This document shows positions 38,302 to 49,548 of a stretch of DNA of 64,000 nt, in pieces (within the stretch, counting starts at the first letter, position 1; every line of letters starts with the position of its first letter). The stretch lies in the NCBI GenBank assembly GCA_015056085.1, contig SVHA01000001.1, positions 124,001-188,000 of the forward strand, given 5' to 3'. A model generated the notes under the pieces. It saw nothing but the letters and a program-made list of their open reading frames with translations, was not told the origin of the DNA and did not search any database. Source of the DNA: Clostridiales bacterium. GTDB taxonomy: Bacteria > Bacillota > Clostridia > Christensenellales > Aristaeellaceae. A program made the translations under genes and the position numbers.

Positions 38302-39105
38302 TTAACCGTTGCGACGGCAGCAGGTGTTGCCGCAGTTACAGCCGTTGTTGCAAGTGTTGGTCAGGCCACCGGCAGCTACCGTGCCTTCGTTGCACAGGGA
38401 GGCAGGCGGGAACAGAGGCAGGCTGAAGAATTCGTCGCAGACGGACTCTGCAAACTCTTCTGCCGGGGGAATGGGGCAGAAGCCGTAGGAGGGGATGAGA
38501 ATTTCCACATCCGCCAGCACCTTCAGGATGATGGTGACGCAGATGGTCATCTGGAACTGGTTGTTGCCCAGATAAGTGCCCGCCACGCAGATGGCGCTCA
38601 CCATGGCTTCCAGTGAGTAGGGCACGATGGATTCGTCGGGGATGCTCAGCAGCACGTCCCGGTTCACGCTGACCACGCCCTTGCCGATGTATTCCACATT
38701 GCGGCTGTCCGTGAACAGAATGTCGATGGGCACATCCACCGTGCAACGCACACGGGCAAAGCAGGGACGGTCACAGAGGCGGTCCACCGTCAGGTTGCGG
38801 ATGGTGCCCTGGGTGGAGGTGCTGCGGCAGCTTTCAAAAGTGATGGGCGGAACAGGCGCAGACGTGGGCGTTACAGGTTCCTGCACTTCCTGGCAGCCGC
38901 AAGTGTTGCACTGGCAAGTGGTGTTCACCTGGGCGTAACTGGTGATGGTCACGACCTGTCTGTCGAGCTGCTCCTGCATCAGCGCGCTGTCATACACACG
39001 CTTGACCTGCACGCAGACCTTCTCTTGCAAACCGTCGATGGCATTGCCGGAAATGGTGCCGGGGCAGCAGTTGTTGTTGGCGTTTTTGTAGGAATAGAAA
39101 GACAT
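38302..39105 (-). CDS. Cysteine-rich putative spore coat protein
   Basis: A 267-residue protein of a family common in spore-forming Clostridia. The N-terminus has NNCCPGTISGNAI and KVCVQVKRVYDS, the middle has a TCQCNTCGCQE cluster, and the end is NGCNCGNTCCRRNG; about 20 cysteines in all. The central part (110-220) resembles SPOCS/DUF3794-like domains of coat-morphogenesis proteins. There is no signal peptide, consistent with assembly from the mother-cell cytoplasm and disulfide cross-linking, which I infer. AAAAGGAGG precedes the ATG at 39105. A CATA-type -10 lies about 50 nt upstream. Confidence 0.75.
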   Translation of the reverse strand: MSFYSYKNANNNCCPGTISGNAIDGLQEKVCVQVKRVYDSALMQEQLDRQVVTITSYAQVNTTCQCNTCGCQEVQEPVTPTSAPVPPITFESCRSTSTQGTIRNLTVDRLCDRPCFARVRCTVDVPIDILFTDSRNVEYIGKGVVSVNRDVLLSIPDESIVPYSLEAMVSAICVAGTYLGNNQFQMTICVTIILKVLADVEILIPSYGFCPIPPAEEFAESVCDEFFSLPLFPPASLCNEGTVAAGGLTNTCNNGCNCGNTCCRRNG

Positions 39106-39155
39106 CAAACCATTCCTCCTTTTCGCGGCCCCCTGCGGTGGGAGCCTTCACCAGC

Positions 39156-40812: not shown

Positions 40813-41652
40813 TTACAGGGGGAGGGCAGCAGCTTCCGGCATTGCAAAGGGCGGCATGCCATTGACGCCGATGAGCTGCATCACCAGGAAAGCCACACCC
40901 AGAATGGCCACATACAGCGCAAACCAGTTCAGCGAAACCCTCGTGATGAGCCGCAGCATGAATCGGATGGCGAGATAGCCGCTGACCGCAGCCACAGCGA
41001 TGCCAATCAGCGTGGGCAGCAGGGAGAGTTCCGCCAGCAGGCCATCCTTCATGGCGCCATAGCCTTCAATGAACAGGCTGGCTGCGATGGCAGGAGCGCT
41101 CATCATGAAGGAGAACTTCGCTGCGCCCTTGCGGTCAACGCCAGCAAGCAAGCCGCCCGCCAGCGTGGAGCCGCTACGGCTTACGCCGGGCAGAAGGGCA
41201 ACGCCTTGCATCACGCCCATGATGATGGACTGCAGCAGATTGGGTGATTCCGTTTTCGCTTTCATCCTATTGGACAGGGTTTCGGCCAGCAGCAGGAAGA
41301 AACCAGTCATCAGGAAAGAAATGCCCATGAACCAGCCGGTGTCAGCACCGTCGAGGAAGTCATCAAAGAGCACCTTCACCACCAGCGCAGGCAGGGACGC
41401 CACAAAGAGCATCAATAGCGTCTTGGACTTGAAGGGGTTTTTCAGGATGGCAAGCCAATCCTTGCGGAAGACGATCAGCACAGGAATCAGCGTGCCGACG
41501 TGAAGGAAAATGTCCAGCATCTTATAAGCAGCGGTCTGATCGTTAAGACCCATGAAGATGCGCCCCAGCAGCAGATGTCCGCTGGAAGAAATGGGAAGGA
41601 ATTCCCCCAGGCCCTGAACAAGGCCCAGCAAAGCCGCCTGAAGAATGTTCAT
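40813..41652 (-). CDS. uppP: Undecaprenyl-diphosphatase UppP/BacA
   Basis: A 279-residue polytopic membrane enzyme that dephosphorylates undecaprenyl pyrophosphate, recycling the lipid carrier for cell-wall synthesis and giving bacitracin resistance. Signature motifs EFLPISSSGHL near residue 17 and GVSRSGSTL near 157 are present, along with about eight spans. The ATG at 41652 follows AAAGGAG; a longer frame to 41727 crosses the promoter. It stands as a single gene with its own promoter. Confidence 0.96.
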   Translation of the reverse strand: MNILQAALLGLVQGLGEFLPISSSGHLLLGRIFMGLNDQTAAYKMLDIFLHVGTLIPVLIVFRKDWLAILKNPFKSKTLLMLFVASLPALVVKVLFDDFLDGADTGWFMGISFLMTGFFLLLAETLSNRMKAKTESPNLLQSIIMGVMQGVALLPGVSRSGSTLAGGLLAGVDRKGAAKFSFMMSAPAIAASLFIEGYGAMKDGLLAELSLLPTLIGIAVAAVSGYLAIRFMLRLITRVSLNWFALYVAILGVAFLVMQLIGVNGMPPFAMPEAAALPL

Positions 41653-41694
41653 TGTCAATCTCCTTTCCTGCGGGTTGACCTGTATAACCTCTGA

Positions 41695-41723
41695 ATTATA
41701 CCACACAATTGCCAATCTGTCAT
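41695..41723 (-). promoter_or_regulatory. Promoter of uppP
   Basis: On the minus strand ATGACA (41723-41718), 17 bp, perfect TATAAT (41700-41695), 43 bp before the start. Confidence 0.82.
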
Positions 41724-41815
41724 CCACAGGTTGGGTTTGAAGGCTGATTTTTCTGCGTGAATGTGATTTTTCTTCGCCTAAACCGTAAATTCAGACCGTT
41801 TGGGTGGCTTTTGAA

Positions 41816-43445: not shown

Positions 43446-43799
43446 ATGAAACAGTATGCAACCGGCCTGGAAGGGGAGAATATCGCAGAAGAATTTCTCC
43501 TTGCCAAGGGGATGACTTGCCTCGAAAAGCGATTTCGGGGTGCTGACGGTGAAATTGACCTGATTATGCTCGACGGCGAAACCGTGGTGTTCGTGGAGGT
43601 CAAGTCCCGCCCGGACAGCCGGAAGGGGATGGGGCTGATGGCCGTCACCCCCGCCAAGCAGCGCAGGATGGCCCATGCCGCCCTTGCTTTTCTTGCAAAA
43701 AGGGAATGGATGAACGTTCCTGTTCGTTTTGATGTTATCGAGATCAGCCGCAGCGGTGTGATGCATATTTCCAATGCCTTCATGCCGCCAGCGGAGTGA
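43446..43799 (+). CDS. YraN family protein (UPF0102)
   Basis: A 117-residue protein with an endonuclease-like core: GLEGENIAEEFL near the N-terminus, then GEIDLIM and FVEVKSR, the E/D ... ExK pattern of restriction-type nucleases. The family occurs next to rnhB and comM, and a role in DNA processing is suspected but not proven. CAGGAGC before the ATG is a moderate ribosome binding site. In many clostridia comM follows directly; here a giant glycosyltransferase gene intervenes. Confidence 0.92.
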   Translation: MKQYATGLEGENIAEEFLLAKGMTCLEKRFRGADGEIDLIMLDGETVVFVEVKSRPDSRKGMGLMAVTPAKQRRMAHAALAFLAKREWMNVPVRFDVIEISRSGVMHISNAFMPPAE

Positions 43800-43823: not shown

Positions 43824-46800
43824 ATGACCCGAGTGAAGACAGGCAGGCTGCTATTGGCCCTTCTGCTGATGCTGCTGTTTATTTTCCCTGCAGTTGCTGA
43901 GGAAGGTCCCAACCTGCTGTATAACGGTGATTTTGAAGAACTGGACGAAGACGGCCTGCCCGTGGGCTGGTATACCGACGAATGGATCCATCAGGAAGGG
44001 TATACCCTCTATCAGACGTCTGATGACGCCCGAAGCGGCGAAAAATCCGCCGTGGTGAACAATCTGGGTCTGAATGACGCCCGGTTTGCCCAGACGGTTT
44101 CTGTGGAGCCGGAATCGCTGTATTGCCTGTCCGGGTGGATCAAGGCAACGGATGTTTCTGAAGAAGGCCGGGGCGCCAATCTTTCTATTGAGGGCCTGTA
44201 TGCCTTTTCTCAGAGCCTGTATGAAACCGACGGCGAATGGTGCCTGGTGGAAATGTACGGCGAAACGGGTCCCGAACAGTATGGAGTGACCGTGTTTGCC
44301 CGGTTGGGCGGTTACAGCGGCGAAAGCACCGGCGTGGCCCAGTTTGACGGCCTTTCCCTGCGGAAAGTGGATTCTGTTCCGGGCGATGGTGTGGCGAAAT
44401 TGTGGTTTACCCCCGAAGTGCCGGAAATTCAGCCCATGCCCGAAGAGTCAGAGCCGGAAGATGCCAAGCCTTTCCTGCCTTGGCTTATGGGAATCGCCGC
44501 CGTGTATGCCTTTGCAGTATTCACGGTGATGAAGCGCTTCAGGAAGAACGAACTTGCCATGAATCCGTACAGCGCTTTCATGCCCTGGGTGCTGGGTGCT
44601 GGTCTGCTGGTAGCCTTTGCTGTGCGGGTAGTGGTGGCTTCCTTTGTGACTGGCTATCCGGTGGACGTGAACTGCTTCCTGTCCTGGGGCAATACCATGG
44701 CTCAGGTGGGACCCGGTGCGTTCTATCAGACCACTTCCTTCTGTGATTATGCTCCCGGTTATATCTATGTGATGGGCCTCAACGGCTGGATCACTAATCT
44801 TTTGGACAATTATCAATACGGCGCCATGGTTCACAAGATGATCCCCATGATCTGCGATGTGGTGATGGCCATGCTGCTGTATGTGATCGGACGACAGCGC
44901 AAGCTGGATGACCGAACCTCCACTGCTGTGGCGCTGCTGTTTGCCTTCAACCCCGCCATGATTCTCAACAGCGCCGCATGGTGCCAGATCGACAGCGTGC
45001 TGTGCCTGCTGCTGATGCTGGTGGCGTGGCTGGCTATCCGGGAAAAGTGGGCGGCGGTGCTGCCGGTATACGTGCTGGCGATCCTCGTGAAGCCTCAGGC
45101 GCTGATGATGGGCTTTCTGGGACTGGCGGCAATCATCCTGCATCTGATTCAGCATCGCAAGGACAACAAGGCCGTCTGGCTGCAACTGCTGATCGGTCTG
45201 GGTCTGTCTGCCGTTGTGGCAGCAGTGATTGTGCTGCCTTTCAGCCCGAATCAGGAAACGCCCTTGTGGCTGATCAATCTCTACGGCGAAACGCTGGCTT
45301 CCTATCCCTATGCGACGGTCAACGCCGCCAACATTTACTACCTCTTCGGCGCCAATTGGAGTCCCATTGCAGACCTTTGCGGTGTTGCGCCTGCTCTGGT
45401 GTTCTGCGGGCTGAGCATCCTGTGGACCGTGTACATCTTCATCACACACCGGCGAAATGTGGACTGGTACGCCGTTGTGCAGATGGTGGTGGGCAGCGTG
45501 TTTGCGCTGGCTTTCATGGTGATGGCCTTCCTGCCTGTGTCCTGGACAGTACTGGGTACTTCTGCCATGGTCATGGCTTTCCTACTGATTCTGCCCATGT
45601 ACTTCCGTGGTGGCAAACTGGAAAACCTGCCCCTGTGCGGCGCTGCGATTTTCCTGCTGTTGCACGTTTTCGGTATCAAGATGCACGAGCGGTATCTTTT
45701 CCCCGCGCTGATTCTGCTGGCCATGGCAGCCTTGCTGCGCCGTGATCGCCGGATTCTGATCCTGCTGGGTATGTCCACTGTGACCGTGTTCCTTAACGAG
45801 GGCATCGTGCTGGACAACGCCATCCGGTTGGGGTCCTCCATGGGCCACCTGAACAATGACACGTTGGTTATCAACAACATCATTTCCGCCATCAGCGTGC
45901 TGACGGCTCTGTTGGGCGTGTGGACGTGCCACAGCGTCTGCCTGGGGGTGGAAAATGACGGCTTCCGGCTGCTTCATAAGGTACTGGCGCTGAAGATTTT
46001 CCGCACCCGGGAGGTGAAAGAGACTCCCGGAACGCCGGAACAGTACCGTACCTGGAACAAGGACGCTTCCCTCCACTGGAAGGGCCTTGACTGGCTGCTG
46101 ATGCTGTCTGTGACGATTGTGTACGCTGTGGTGTGCCTGTTGACGCTGGGTTCCACCAAGGCGCCGCAAACCCCGTGGAAATCCACCTCTGTCAACGAGC
46201 AGGTGATCATCGACCTGGGGCAGCATTACGACGATGTGTCCATGCTGTATTTTGCTCAGGTGTCCTACCACAATTTCACCGTAGCGGTGAGCGATGACGG
46301 CGAGAACTGGTCGGAGGAATACTGGGCACAGATGAATGAAGGCCAGTGCTTCCGCTGGGTATATCTTGTGCCCGCCATGGAGCATTCCAGCGGGGAAGTG
46401 CTGTACACCACGCCCAATACAGTGGACGGCGTGCAGAAACTTTCCGGGCGATATGTGCGCATCAGTGCCCGGCAGATTGGCCTGACACTCAACGAGGTCA
46501 TCTTCAAGGACAGCGAGGGTGAAATCATTCCCGCCAGGGCGATTTCCCAGCATTATGCCCTCCCTGAATCACCCAACTATTCCGACATCAGCCTGCTGAC
46601 GGACGAGCAGGACACCCTTGACGGTGAACCGGGCTGGTGGAATTCCACCTACTTTGATGAAATCTATCATGCCCGCACGGCCTACGAACATCTCCACGGC
46701 CTGACCACCTACGAGGTCAGCCATCCGCCGCTGGGCAAGGTGATCATGTCCTGGGCGGTGGGCATTTTCGGCATGACGCCCTTTGGCTGGCGCTTTGCCG

Positions 46801-47966
46801 GCGCCATGGCGGGCATCCTGATGCTTCCGGCGATGTATCAGCTGGGCAAGCAACTCACGAAAAAGAGCGGGCTGGCCTTTGCGGCCATGCTGCTGATGGC
46901 GTTGGACTGTATGCACTTCACCCAGACCCGCATCGCCACCATCGACAGCTATCCGGTGCTGTTTATCATTCTCAGTTACCTGTTTATGCTCAGGTTTATG
47001 CAACGGGATATCATCCTCAACCCGATGAAGAAGTTGCTCCCCGATCTGGCTCTGAGCGGCCTGTTCATGGGCTGCGGCATCGCCAGCAAATGGATCGGCC
47101 TGTATTCCGCTGTGGGCCTGGCGCTGCTGTACTTCTGGACATGCTTGCGCCATGTTCGCCTCGGATTCATCCTCCGCAGGCGCATCCTGAACGGACAGGA
47201 GGTCACGGAAGCGGACCGCAAGCGGGCAGAGACCTGCGTCCAGCGCATCATTTACCTCTGCCTGTGCTGTGTGGGCTTCTTCGTGGCCGTGCCGGCAGTG
47301 ATTTACGTTCTGTCCTACATCCCGTATTTTGCCTATCGTGATCCCGGCAGCATCGGTGAGTTCCTGCACCTTGTGATTGATGCCCAGGAGAATATGTTCT
47401 CCTATCATTCCACGCCGGGACTGGGCATGGATCATCCCTTCTATTCTCCGTGGTATGAGTGGCCGCTGATTTCCCGCCCGATGTACTACGCTTCGCCCCG
47501 CTTTGTGCCGGAAGGATGGAGTTACGCCCTGTTCTGCTTCGGCAATCCTGCGGTGTGGGTGTTCGGCCTCGTGGCCGTCCTGTGGGTGGCCCTTGTTTGG
47601 GCAAAGCGTCACAGGTACGCCCTTGCCGGGTCTGATTACCTCTGGCACCTGAAGAGCAAGACCTTTGATGTGTCGCCTGCCGTGGTGCTCATCGGCCTGA
47701 TGGCGCAATTCATTCCCTGGGTGCTGGTGCCCCGCAGCACCTTCATCTACCACTATTTCGCCAGCGTACCGTTCCTGATTCTCGGCACAGTGCTGGTGTT
47801 CCACTGGTTCATCAGCCGCTTCCCTCGAAATGGAAAAACCTGGCTTGCGCTGCTTCTGGTGGTGTCTCTGGCCTTCTTCATCGGCTTTTTCCCCTATGCA
47901 AGCGGACTGCTGGCCCCCACGGGGTGGCTTGACTTCATGCAGAATTTCCTCCACGTTTACTATTGA
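43824..47966 (+). CDS. Giant fused GT-C glycosyltransferase with lectin-like domains
   Basis: A 1380-residue membrane protein. Residues 1-26 are a signal sequence; 28-190 look like a carbohydrate-binding (CBM4/9-like) domain beginning NLLYNGDFEELD. Residues about 215-745 form a polytopic GT-C module with an early acidic motif (YPVDVNCF near 278). About 790-920 resembles an F5/8-type discoidin domain. From 935 a second GT-C module matches the protein-O-mannosyltransferase (GT39) pattern, with FDEIYHA near 944, HPPLGK near 966, and a multi-span C-terminus. It likely transfers sugars from polyprenyl-phosphate to extracellular proteins or glycans. Domain borders are my estimates; acceptor unknown. 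RBS AAAGAGGTG is moderate. Confidence 0.82.
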   Translation: MTRVKTGRLLLALLLMLLFIFPAVAEEGPNLLYNGDFEELDEDGLPVGWYTDEWIHQEGYTLYQTSDDARSGEKSAVVNNLGLNDARFAQTVSVEPESLYCLSGWIKATDVSEEGRGANLSIEGLYAFSQSLYETDGEWCLVEMYGETGPEQYGVTVFARLGGYSGESTGVAQFDGLSLRKVDSVPGDGVAKLWFTPEVPEIQPMPEESEPEDAKPFLPWLMGIAAVYAFAVFTVMKRFRKNELAMNPYSAFMPWVLGAGLLVAFAVRVVVASFVTGYPVDVNCFLSWGNTMAQVGPGAFYQTTSFCDYAPGYIYVMGLNGWITNLLDNYQYGAMVHKMIPMICDVVMAMLLYVIGRQRKLDDRTSTAVALLFAFNPAMILNSAAWCQIDSVLCLLLMLVAWLAIREKWAAVLPVYVLAILVKPQALMMGFLGLAAIILHLIQHRKDNKAVWLQLLIGLGLSAVVAAVIVLPFSPNQETPLWLINLYGETLASYPYATVNAANIYYLFGANWSPIADLCGVAPALVFCGLSILWTVYIFITHRRNVDWYAVVQMVVGSVFALAFMVMAFLPVSWTVLGTSAMVMAFLLILPMYFRGGKLENLPLCGAAIFLLLHVFGIKMHERYLFPALILLAMAALLRRDRRILILLGMSTVTVFLNEGIVLDNAIRLGSSMGHLNNDTLVINNIISAISVLTALLGVWTCHSVCLGVENDGFRLLHKVLALKIFRTREVKETPGTPEQYRTWNKDASLHWKGLDWLLMLSVTIVYAVVCLLTLGSTKAPQTPWKSTSVNEQVIIDLGQHYDDVSMLYFAQVSYHNFTVAVSDDGENWSEEYWAQMNEGQCFRWVYLVPAMEHSSGEVLYTTPNTVDGVQKLSGRYVRISARQIGLTLNEVIFKDSEGEIIPARAISQHYALPESPNYSDISLLTDEQDTLDGEPGWWNSTYFDEIYHARTAYEHLHGLTTYEVSHPPLGKVIMSWAVGIFGMTPFGWRFAGAMAGILMLPAMYQLGKQLTKKSGLAFAAMLLMALDCMHFTQTRIATIDSYPVLFIILSYLFMLRFMQRDIILNPMKKLLPDLALSGLFMGCGIASKWIGLYSAVGLALLYFWTCLRHVRLGFILRRRILNGQEVTEADRKRAETCVQRIIYLCLCCVGFFVAVPAVIYVLSYIPYFAYRDPGSIGEFLHLVIDAQENMFSYHSTPGLGMDHPFYSPWYEWPLISRPMYYASPRFVPEGWSYALFCFGNPAVWVFGLVAVLWVALVWAKRHRYALAGSDYLWHLKSKTFDVSPAVVLIGLMAQFIPWVLVPRSTFIYHYFASVPFLILGTVLVFHWFISRFPRNGKTWLALLLVVSLAFFIGFFPYASGLLAPTGWLDFMQNFLHVYY

Positions 47967-48015: not shown

Positions 48016-49548
48016 ATGCTGGCACGAACACTGGGATATGGTCTGAGCGGCGTGAGCGGCTTTGCAGTCAAGGTGGAAGTCTACGCCGCAAATGGCTTAC
48101 CTGCGCTGGAAATCATCGGTCTGCCGGATGCTTCCGTCAAGGAGAGCCGGGACAGAGTCAGCGCTGCCATTGTCAACAGCGGATTCGCCATGCCCATCGC
48201 CCGCCTGACGGTCAATCTGGCTCCTGCCGACACCCGTAAGGAAGGCCCTGCCTTTGATCTGCCCATTGCCGTTGCGGTGCTGATGGCTTCCGGCCAGCTG
48301 GAAGGCATGGATTTGAGCAAGACCCTCATGCTGGGTGAACTGTCCCTGGATGGCACGCTGCAGCCTGTCAGAGGTGCGCTGCCCATGGTCATCAGCGCCA
48401 GCGAGCAGGGCATTGAGGACGTCATCCTGCCTCAAGGCAACGCCGAAGAAGTGGCCTGCATTCAGGGCATCAGGGTGTATCCGGCAAACAGCCTCCGTAC
48501 GGTGGTCAACCACCTGAAGGGCAAAGAGCGCATCCCGGCGCAGATTCAGCGCACCTATCAGGAGATTTTACAGAAGTCTTTCTGCCCAGTGGATCTTTCT
48601 CAGGTGCAGGGTCAGGCGGGCGCCCGTCGGGCGCTGGAAATTGCCGCTGCCGGCGGCCACAATATGCTCATGGTGGGCGTTCCCGGTTCTGGCAAAACCA
48701 TGTTGGCACGGTGTCTGCCGGGCATTCTGCCGCCTCTGACCTTTGACGAGGCGCTGGAGACTACCCGCATTCATTCCATTGCCGGGAAATTGACTCCGGG
48801 CAGCGGCCTGATGGCTACACGGCCTTTCAGTGCGCCCCATCACAGCGCCTCGGTGGCCAGCCTCATCGGCGGCGGCTCCAATGCACGGCCTGGTGAAGTC
48901 TCACTGGCCCACAATGGCGTGCTGTTTCTGGACGAACTGCCTGAATTCAGCCGCAATGCACTGGAAGCATTGCGCCAGCCGCTGGAAGATGGTGTGGTGT
49001 CCGTCACCCGTGTGCATAATCAGGCCCAGTATCAGTCCAGTTTCATGCTGGTGGCCAGCATGAATCCCTGTCCCTGCGGCTTTTATGGCAGCAAGCAGCG
49101 CCAGTGCCGGTGCAGTCAGCATGAAATCCGGCGGTATCTGGACCGGGTCTCCGGGCCACTGCTGGACCGCATCGACATCCAGATTGAAGTGGATGCCGTA
49201 CCGGTGAAGGAAATCAGCACCGGCAGCGAAGCGGAATCTTCCGCTGTGGTGGGCGCCCGTGTACGCAAGGCGAGAGAGTTGCAGCACAAGCGCTACCGGC
49301 TGGATGGCATTCACTGCAACGCCCAGCTGGACGCACGGCTCATCAAGCGCTATTGTGCTTTGACACCGGAAGCCACGCAGATTCTTCACATGGCTGTCGA
49401 TCGCATGGGCATGAGTATGCGTGCATATAACCGTGTGCTGAAGGTGGCCCGTACCATTGCCGACCTGGCAGGGGAGGAGAACATCACTACTGCCCATGTC
49501 GCCGAGGCCATCCAGTATCGTGAACTGGACGGAAAATATTGGCGCTAA
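48016..49548 (+). CDS. comM: YifB/ComM family Mg-chelatase-like AAA+ ATPase
   Basis: A 510-residue AAA+ protein of the ComM/YifB family. N-terminal Lon-protease-like fold (GLPDASVKESRDRV), Walker A GVPGSGKTM near residue 221, Walker B FLDELPEF near 305, a four-cysteine zinc motif (CPCGFYGSKQRQCRC), and the C-terminal Mg-chelatase domain. In naturally competent bacteria ComM is a branch-migration helicase for integrating transformed DNA. The start ATG follows AAGGAGG; the longer frame to 47830 lies within the upstream gene. dprA, another recombination gene, lies 7 kb downstream. Confidence 0.94.
   Translation: MLARTLGYGLSGVSGFAVKVEVYAANGLPALEIIGLPDASVKESRDRVSAAIVNSGFAMPIARLTVNLAPADTRKEGPAFDLPIAVAVLMASGQLEGMDLSKTLMLGELSLDGTLQPVRGALPMVISASEQGIEDVILPQGNAEEVACIQGIRVYPANSLRTVVNHLKGKERIPAQIQRTYQEILQKSFCPVDLSQVQGQAGARRALEIAAAGGHNMLMVGVPGSGKTMLARCLPGILPPLTFDEALETTRIHSIAGKLTPGSGLMATRPFSAPHHSASVASLIGGGSNARPGEVSLAHNGVLFLDELPEFSRNALEALRQPLEDGVVSVTRVHNQAQYQSSFMLVASMNPCPCGFYGSKQRQCRCSQHEIRRYLDRVSGPLLDRIDIQIEVDAVPVKEISTGSEAESSAVVGARVRKARELQHKRYRLDGIHCNAQLDARLIKRYCALTPEATQILHMAVDRMGMSMRAYNRVLKVARTIADLAGEENITTAHVAEAIQYRELDGKYWR

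Follow-up and report, generated by a model that had tools for sequence, protein, structure and literature searches.

The 64,000-nucleotide stretch of a Clostridiales bacterium genome analyzed here (hereafter the window; assembly GCA_015056085.1, contig SVHA01000001.1, positions 124,001 to 188,000 of the forward strand) carries a gene for a 1380-residue protein in which two different GT-C glycosyltransferase modules and two lectin-like domains are joined in a single chain. Both modules are very likely competent enzymes, and the protein is probably a bifunctional, membrane-embedded extracytoplasmic glycosyltransferase that draws on undecaprenyl-phosphate (Und-P)-sugar to place one sugar and then a second onto secreted proteins. 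As to the parts of this reading, that the acceptor is a protein is likely, and we also favor, somewhat less firmly, action of the two modules in sequence on the same glycan. From the N to the C terminus the protein is made up of a signal peptide, a carbohydrate-binding module (CBM), an anchor, a GT-C module (the N module), a linker, the first transmembrane helix (TM1) of a protein mannosyltransferase (PMT) module (the C module), a discoidin domain in the first external loop (EL1) of that module, and the PMT core, as follows.

43824..47966, + strand: complete fusion gene (1380 aa; ATG start)
43824..43898, + strand: signal peptide, residues 1-25 (hydropathy segment 7-25; model helix 5-19)
43905..44372, + strand: CBM-like beta sandwich, predicted extracytoplasmic, residues 28-183 (profile, Foldseek, Pfam in relatives)
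44475..44540, + strand: membrane anchor helix behind the CBM, residues 218-239 (model, hydropathy)
44580..45941, + strand: first GT-C module, GT87/ALG6/PIG-M-like, residues 253-706 (Foldseek, Pfam, profile)
45942..46082, + strand: linker joining the modules, residues 707-753, predicted cytoplasmic (K+R over D+E)
46083..46142, + strand: TM1 of the PMT module, residues 754-773 (model helix, hydropathy)
46167..46553, + strand: discoidin/CBM32-like domain in EL1 of the PMT module, residues 782-910 (Pfam, Foldseek)
46632..47927, + strand: PMT (GT39-like) core, residues 937-1368 (Pfam, Foldseek)

An earlier sequence-only reading of this DNA had given the open reading frame (ORF) with exactly these coordinates and this length, and had described two GT-C modules, the second of them PMT-like, and two lectin-like domains in one frame; Pfam, structure models, and Foldseek agree with it on all these points. 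Structure prediction for each module, which it had proposed as a check, was done with AlphaFold on the N and C halves separately, using the sequences of the window protein and its relatives, and folds were compared by Foldseek. The models are confident (pLDDT 89.9 for the N half and 94.2 for the C half), and they match CBMs and ALG6 (N) and Pmt4 and Pmt1 (C). The two modules match different GT-C families, which rules out internal duplication of one GT-C enzyme.

The C module matches the PMT family. In the window protein PMT (PF02366) scores 54.1 bits (cut-off 22.7) and PMT_4TMC (PF16192) 69.4 bits (cut-off 32.4) within residues 981-1362, both lie above the curated cut-offs in 25 of 25 relatives, and the best Foldseek matches are Pmt4 (E 1.4e-13, TMt 0.70), Pmt1, and Pmt2. 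Its active-site residues were mapped by alignment to yeast Pmt1 (ScPmt1) and from there to the Mycobacterium tuberculosis enzyme (MtPMT).

46656..46661, + strand: catalytic D945-E946, equivalent to ScPmt1 D77-E78 and MtPMT D74-E75 (alignment; conserved in 67/67)
46944..46946, + strand: D1041, equivalent to ScPmt1 D189 and MtPMT D176 (alignment; 67/67)
47733..47744, + strand: R1304-x2-F1307, equivalent to MtPMT R441-x2-Y444 and ScPmt1 R649-x2-F652 (R in 67/67)

Four residues of MtPMT are essential by mutagenesis (PMC12331936), and their counterparts D945 (in EL1), D1041 (EL2), R1304, and the aromatic residue 1307 (both EL5) are invariant or conservatively replaced in 67 fusions, position 1307 being aromatic in all of them (F in 35, Y in 32). 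Fungal Pmt1, Pmt2, and Pmt4 are the best solved folds for this module, and D77, D189, R138, and R649 all have counterparts here; these enzymes have accessory MIR domains in the fourth external loop (EL4) and no second enzyme, whereas the fusion has its discoidin domain in EL1. MIR domains are absent from bacterial PMTs in general, and a Pfam search of the window protein for them gave no match. On its sequence and model the C module is called GT39-like only, the GT39 reaction being transfer of mannose from lipid-phosphate-mannose to Ser/Thr.

For the N module, Foldseek finds ALG6 as the closest solved fold (E 2.2e-4, TMt 0.60, 536 columns), and there is a profile match to PIG-M (E 8e-10). Among the N modules of 67 relatives, GT87 (PF09594) is found in 20 at E <= 1e-3 (best 7e-12; the window protein itself is unmatched), Alg6_Alg8 in 9, and ALG3 in 8. 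The module thus belongs to the GT-C superfamily by its ALG6 fold together with a conserved acidic residue on the first external loop, D281, which by analogy with GT-C enzymes generally is the candidate catalytic acid.

44664..44666, + strand: D281, candidate catalytic acid on EL1 of the first GT-C module (conserved in 67/67)
45684..45695, + strand: H621-E-R-Y624 motif of the first GT-C module (67/67)

Invariant in the N modules of the 67 fusions are D281, D308-Y309, D345, D390, K423-P-Q, and H621-E-R-Y. ALG6, PIG-M, and the GT87 enzymes share with this module the GT-C fold and the acidic EL1 residue; their acceptors are lipid-linked glycans, glycosylphosphatidylinositol, or phosphatidylinositol mannosides, whereas the N module here bears a CBM and forms one chain with a PMT.

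Preservation of the N-module site goes with presence of a PMT module. Across 30 further N modules from genomes that have a PMT module, HE/DRY and K-x-Q are kept in 30 of 30, D281 in 29, and DY in 28, versus none of 58 for each of HERY, DY, and K-x-Q in genomes without one; in a tree these 58 form one clade, so that the contrast amounts to about one evolutionary event and independent losses are ruled out. The clade of lone N modules (L198-L237, L261-L272, L035, L037-L040, L042) keeps the CBM plus GT-C layout and has lost the GT-C signature residues. Six of its members (L035, L037-L040, L042), which sit between yraN and comM and have lipobox-like signal peptides, look like lipoprotein pseudoenzymes.

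The two lectin-like domains differ in kind and in position. Residues 28-183 match a hyaluronan-binding module in a PDB profile search (4d0q), CBM structures lead the Foldseek results for the N half, and Pfam CBM_4_9 is found in this domain in 16 of 67 relatives; by Pfam and fold it is a CBM of the family 4/9/16 kind, with putative carbohydrate binding. The second domain matches the CBM32 structure 4a42 by Foldseek and F5_F8_type_C by Pfam in 14 of 25 family members (best 1.8e-17), the window protein's own score being below the cut-off (15.3 versus 28.2 bits). The sequence-only reading had put this discoidin domain between the two GT-C modules. It lies instead within the PMT module, after TM1 and ahead of the catalytic residues 945-946, and a role as inter-module linker is thereby ruled out. 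In 67 relatives, 130-226 residues (median 166) separate TM1 from the catalytic Asp; that Asp is residue 77 of whole yeast Pmt1 and residue 74 of MtPMT. Where the second module is a gene of its own (L041, L147, L050) the gene starts just ahead of TM1, so the discoidin domain belongs to the PMT unit. Since the CBM follows the signal peptide and the basic linker is predicted to be inside, the two acidic sites and the two lectin-like domains are expected on the outer side of the membrane.

Relatives occur in 47 of 60 related genomes, full-length in most, and the ORF is therefore not a chance one. A scan of GTDB species genomes gave at least 557 relatives, and among the best 80 of these the fusion is seen at full length in many Christensenella-type Clostridia as well as in cultured Paenibacillus and Cohnella; the fusion that the sequence-only reading had wished to see sought in other clostridia is thus widespread in the order and also present in Paenibacillaceae. 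In the yraN-comM interval one finds the fusion, overlapping N and C genes (by ATGA in L041 and L147), N, C, and GtrA genes side by side (L050), C alone with N elsewhere (L033/L034), or N alone. Split N and C genes are also adjacent, with the boundary in the same place, in L185 and L190. Such adjacent or overlapping genes, split at one boundary, are Rosetta-stone evidence that supports association of the modules. The sequence-only reading had named two findings that would tell against a tandem enzyme, a catalytic acidic residue in one module alone and split orthologs with unrelated roles; both active sites are intact and invariant in the 67 fusions, and the split orthologs are neighbors. In a midpoint-rooted tree of C modules, with moderate support, several split or lone forms lie near the base and L041, L147, and L185 lie among the fusions, and by this phylogeny the family goes back to an ancient pair of genes that became fused and at times came apart again.

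Other arrangements exist as well. Lone PMT modules with intact sites and no N module are found in L186, which has E for D1041, and L188. A CBM and PMT without the first GT-C module occur together in L116, with similar ORFs in G477, G488, and G501; this CBM, anchor, and PMT form of about 910-960 aa recurs (L116:7911-10640, L273, L274, G477:C14, G501:C23) and in some genomes occurs beside an N-module gene of its own or a complete fusion. Two longer fusions, L066 (1694 aa) and L036 (1611 aa), are extended between the first GT-C module and the PMT core, where the EL1 domain may be duplicated, and L187:5521-8589 encodes a 1023-aa fusion that lacks the N-terminal CBM and may have arisen independently.

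The split locus L190 has the gene order GH9-CBM3-GH5, PMT module (566 aa, 1701 bp with stop), N module (497 aa), WG-repeat protein, peptidyl-prolyl isomerase, and GH74-like protein, and from gene order and gene length we infer that it is the Caldicellulosiruptor cluster. In the glucan degradation locus of Caldicellulosiruptor bescii the 1701-bp GT39 gene Cbes_1864 heads a four-gene cluster, Cbes_1861-1864; its product has a carbohydrate-binding-like domain in loop 1, and its deletion removes all detectable protein glycosylation (PMC6151902). Galactose disaccharides have been reported on the C. bescii cellulase CelA (PMC7142884), and this is disputed (PMC12757957). Cbes_1864 is thus like the C module here in having a GT39/PMT core with such a domain in loop 1, and in the C. 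bescii-type locus the N module is the next gene downstream, the active-site residues of both modules being the same as in the fusion. It differs in that there are two separate genes, the N module has no N-terminal CBM, identity to the window protein is about 27-29%, and the genes lie beside cellulase genes. In the literature searched, Cbes_1863 figures solely as a neighboring gene.

In mycobacteria a GT39 enzyme adds the first mannose and the GT87 enzyme PimE extends it (PMC12757957). The actinobacterial pair thereby offers a precedent, with GT39 starting and GT87 extending from polyprenyl-phosphate-sugar outside the membrane and with the same PMT tetrad as here, although Pmt and PimE are separate proteins without lectin domains and the fusion falls outside the NCBIfam Pmt equivalog. 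The arabinosyltransferase AftD is a large GT-C enzyme with lectin-like domains and one catalytic GT-C module. The arabinosyltransferases EmbA/B/C likewise resemble the fusion as large GT-C enzymes with lectin-like domains, but have one catalytic GT-C module each (for the EmbC lectin-like module, see PMC3044687).

Genes that could supply the donor accompany the family. Downstream of the Paenibacillus fusion come genes for a GtrB/CsbB-type GT2, a GtrA flippase, a sortase, and a transglutaminase-core protein, and upstream of it lies a PMT_2-type GT-C gene (L120, L122, L123, L142, L185, with the fusion or the split pair and not all members in each). GT2 and GtrA genes lie beside fusion or split genes in L120, L122, L123, L185, and L189, and GtrA alone beside L050. 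This recalls the Gtr/Csb three-component systems, in which GT2, GtrA, and GT-C genes cluster; in Paenibacillus, unlike those systems, the GT-C is a double enzyme, with the extra PMT_2 GT-C upstream and the sortase downstream. The sortase in the cluster raises a possible link between glycosylation and sortase-anchored surface proteins. The window's own genome encodes a GT2-GtrA protein. Of the order-level genomes that have a PMT module, 9 of 13 contain a homolog of it, compared with 0 of 11 of those lacking the module (Fisher p = 0.0006), a difference to which genome size could contribute.

In the mechanism that we favor, a cytoplasmic GT2 would make Und-P-sugar and GtrA would turn it over; the PMT module would then attach sugar 1 to a Ser or Thr in a protein that is exported, as is suggested by its family, by its residues, and by the knockout of a distant homolog in C. 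bescii. The GT87/ALG6-like module, which like the PMT module would take a single sugar from the lipid carrier, would put sugar 2 on sugar 1; this is proposed because of the C. bescii locus, the mycobacterial GT39/GT87 precedent, and the dependence of the N site on a PMT module. The EL1 discoidin domain may help to hold the acceptor or glycan, and the N-terminal CBM may hold the growing glycan or the cell surface. The order C first, N second fits the asymmetry that intact PMT modules exist alone and N sites are gone without a PMT module, again counted as about one event. It had been suggested from the sequence that the tandem builds a disaccharide in one step. The disaccharide gains indirect support from the split neighbors, the C. 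bescii match with its galactose disaccharide, the GT39/GT87 precedent, and the N-site loss; "in one step" does not, since two sites imply two transfers.

Several observations weigh against this reading. The window's N module alone reaches no Pfam family in a profile search, and the loss of N sites is, as noted, a single-clade event. What ties L190 to C. bescii is the order and length of genes, and its branch in the C-module tree is long. The donor genes of the window's own genome, where GT2-GtrA is one protein, are unlinked to the fusion, and a search of that genome for Pro-Thr linkers in potential acceptors gave 6 versus 4 in the control, no excess. Finally, the fusion reaches 45.7 bits with the actinobacterial Pmt equivalog NF058602, for which the cut-off is 800, and is therefore not an ortholog of actinobacterial Pmt.

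Some of these points would suit enzymes that are both active on cell-wall polymers or other glycans, in the manner of three-component GT-C enzymes on teichoic acids, or independently on different acceptors, which we consider rather unlikely. The two sugar-binding domains, GtrA/GT2 neighbors such as those of teichoic-acid decoration systems (PMC8035078), and the missing Pro-Thr signal are in its favor; however, the C module, with its PMT_4TMC domain and complete set of PMT residues, is not of the PMT_2-only or YfhO type found in wall-polymer GT-Cs, the one apparently tested family member was needed for protein glycosylation, and the sortase and transglutaminase-core protein of the Paenibacillus cluster point to surface proteins. 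It is improbable that the N module first makes a lipid-phosphate-disaccharide that the PMT module transfers en bloc: known GT39 enzymes use lipid-phosphate-monosaccharides, the known GT39/GT87 pair works sequentially on protein, and intact PMT modules exist without an N module, although the strict dependence of the N site on a PMT module would also be accounted for. More improbable still is a catalytic PMT module served by an acceptor-binding or chaperone-like N pseudoenzyme, an idea that the pseudoenzyme-like clade and the lack of a Pfam match for the window's N module bring to mind, but the N signature residues do not vary among the 67 fusions, and split copies retain them too, precisely in those cases where a PMT module is present. 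An assembly or annotation artifact can practically be dismissed: although metagenome assemblies are the source of most copies, dozens of independent assemblies share the architecture, and the cultured Paenibacillus and Cohnella isolates refute the idea.

The gene itself appears native to the genome. A good Shine-Dalgarno sequence, AGAGGTG, precedes the ATG, the GC content is 0.570 against 0.568 across the window, and the fusion is the one gene with a PMT domain in the 2.08-Mb genome. Its neighbors, given for context, are the following.

43446..43799, + strand: yraN, upstream neighbor (synteny)
48016..49548, + strand: comM, downstream neighbor

The arrangement ylqF-rnhB-(yraN)-X-comM, where X is the slot of the fusion, is near-universal in the order. 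This slot is the ancestral place of the gene in the whole order, and a recent insertion is ruled out by the order-wide position and the native GC content; of the sequence-only view that the gene was inserted between yraN and comM, the position holds and the local insertion does not. Judged by eye, a gene for a uppP-like undecaprenyl-pyrophosphate phosphatase lies a few genes upstream on the opposite strand (window 40813-41727, -), and its product would supply the same lipid carrier. A Cys-rich 268-aa protein (window 38302-39108, -) resembles, also by eye, a spore-coat or exosporium-type protein.

In its fullest form the proposal of two sequential transfers is that the fusion is a single-polypeptide O-glycan disaccharide synthase, with an initiating PMT and an elongating GT-C module working on the same protein acceptor and lectin domains handing the chain, bearing one sugar and then two, from one site to the other, that it is the standard surface-glycosylation machine of this large order of gut Clostridia and of Paenibacillaceae, and that the gene after the known GT39 gene is the missing second-sugar transferase of cellulolytic thermophiles. 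We advance this tentatively, judging its chances a little short of even. The parts are of known kinds, and the fusion of GT39-like and GT87-like enzymes with two lectin domains is widespread and apparently uncharacterized; in the literature searched we found no paper describing a tandem of PMT and GT-C modules. Bacteria give the PMT an accessory lectin domain in EL1, and eukaryotes use MIR domains in EL4. If the proposal is true, uncultured gut Clostridia and Paenibacillaceae would have as a core trait the general O-glycosylation of the proteins that they export, the glycan being a defined disaccharide, and the trait would be carried by a single gene, which databases would name by its PMT half alone. 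The gene after Cbes_1864 would then be a candidate for transfer of the second sugar on C. bescii cellulases, and the fusion would offer a one-gene tool to put a disaccharide on secreted proteins.

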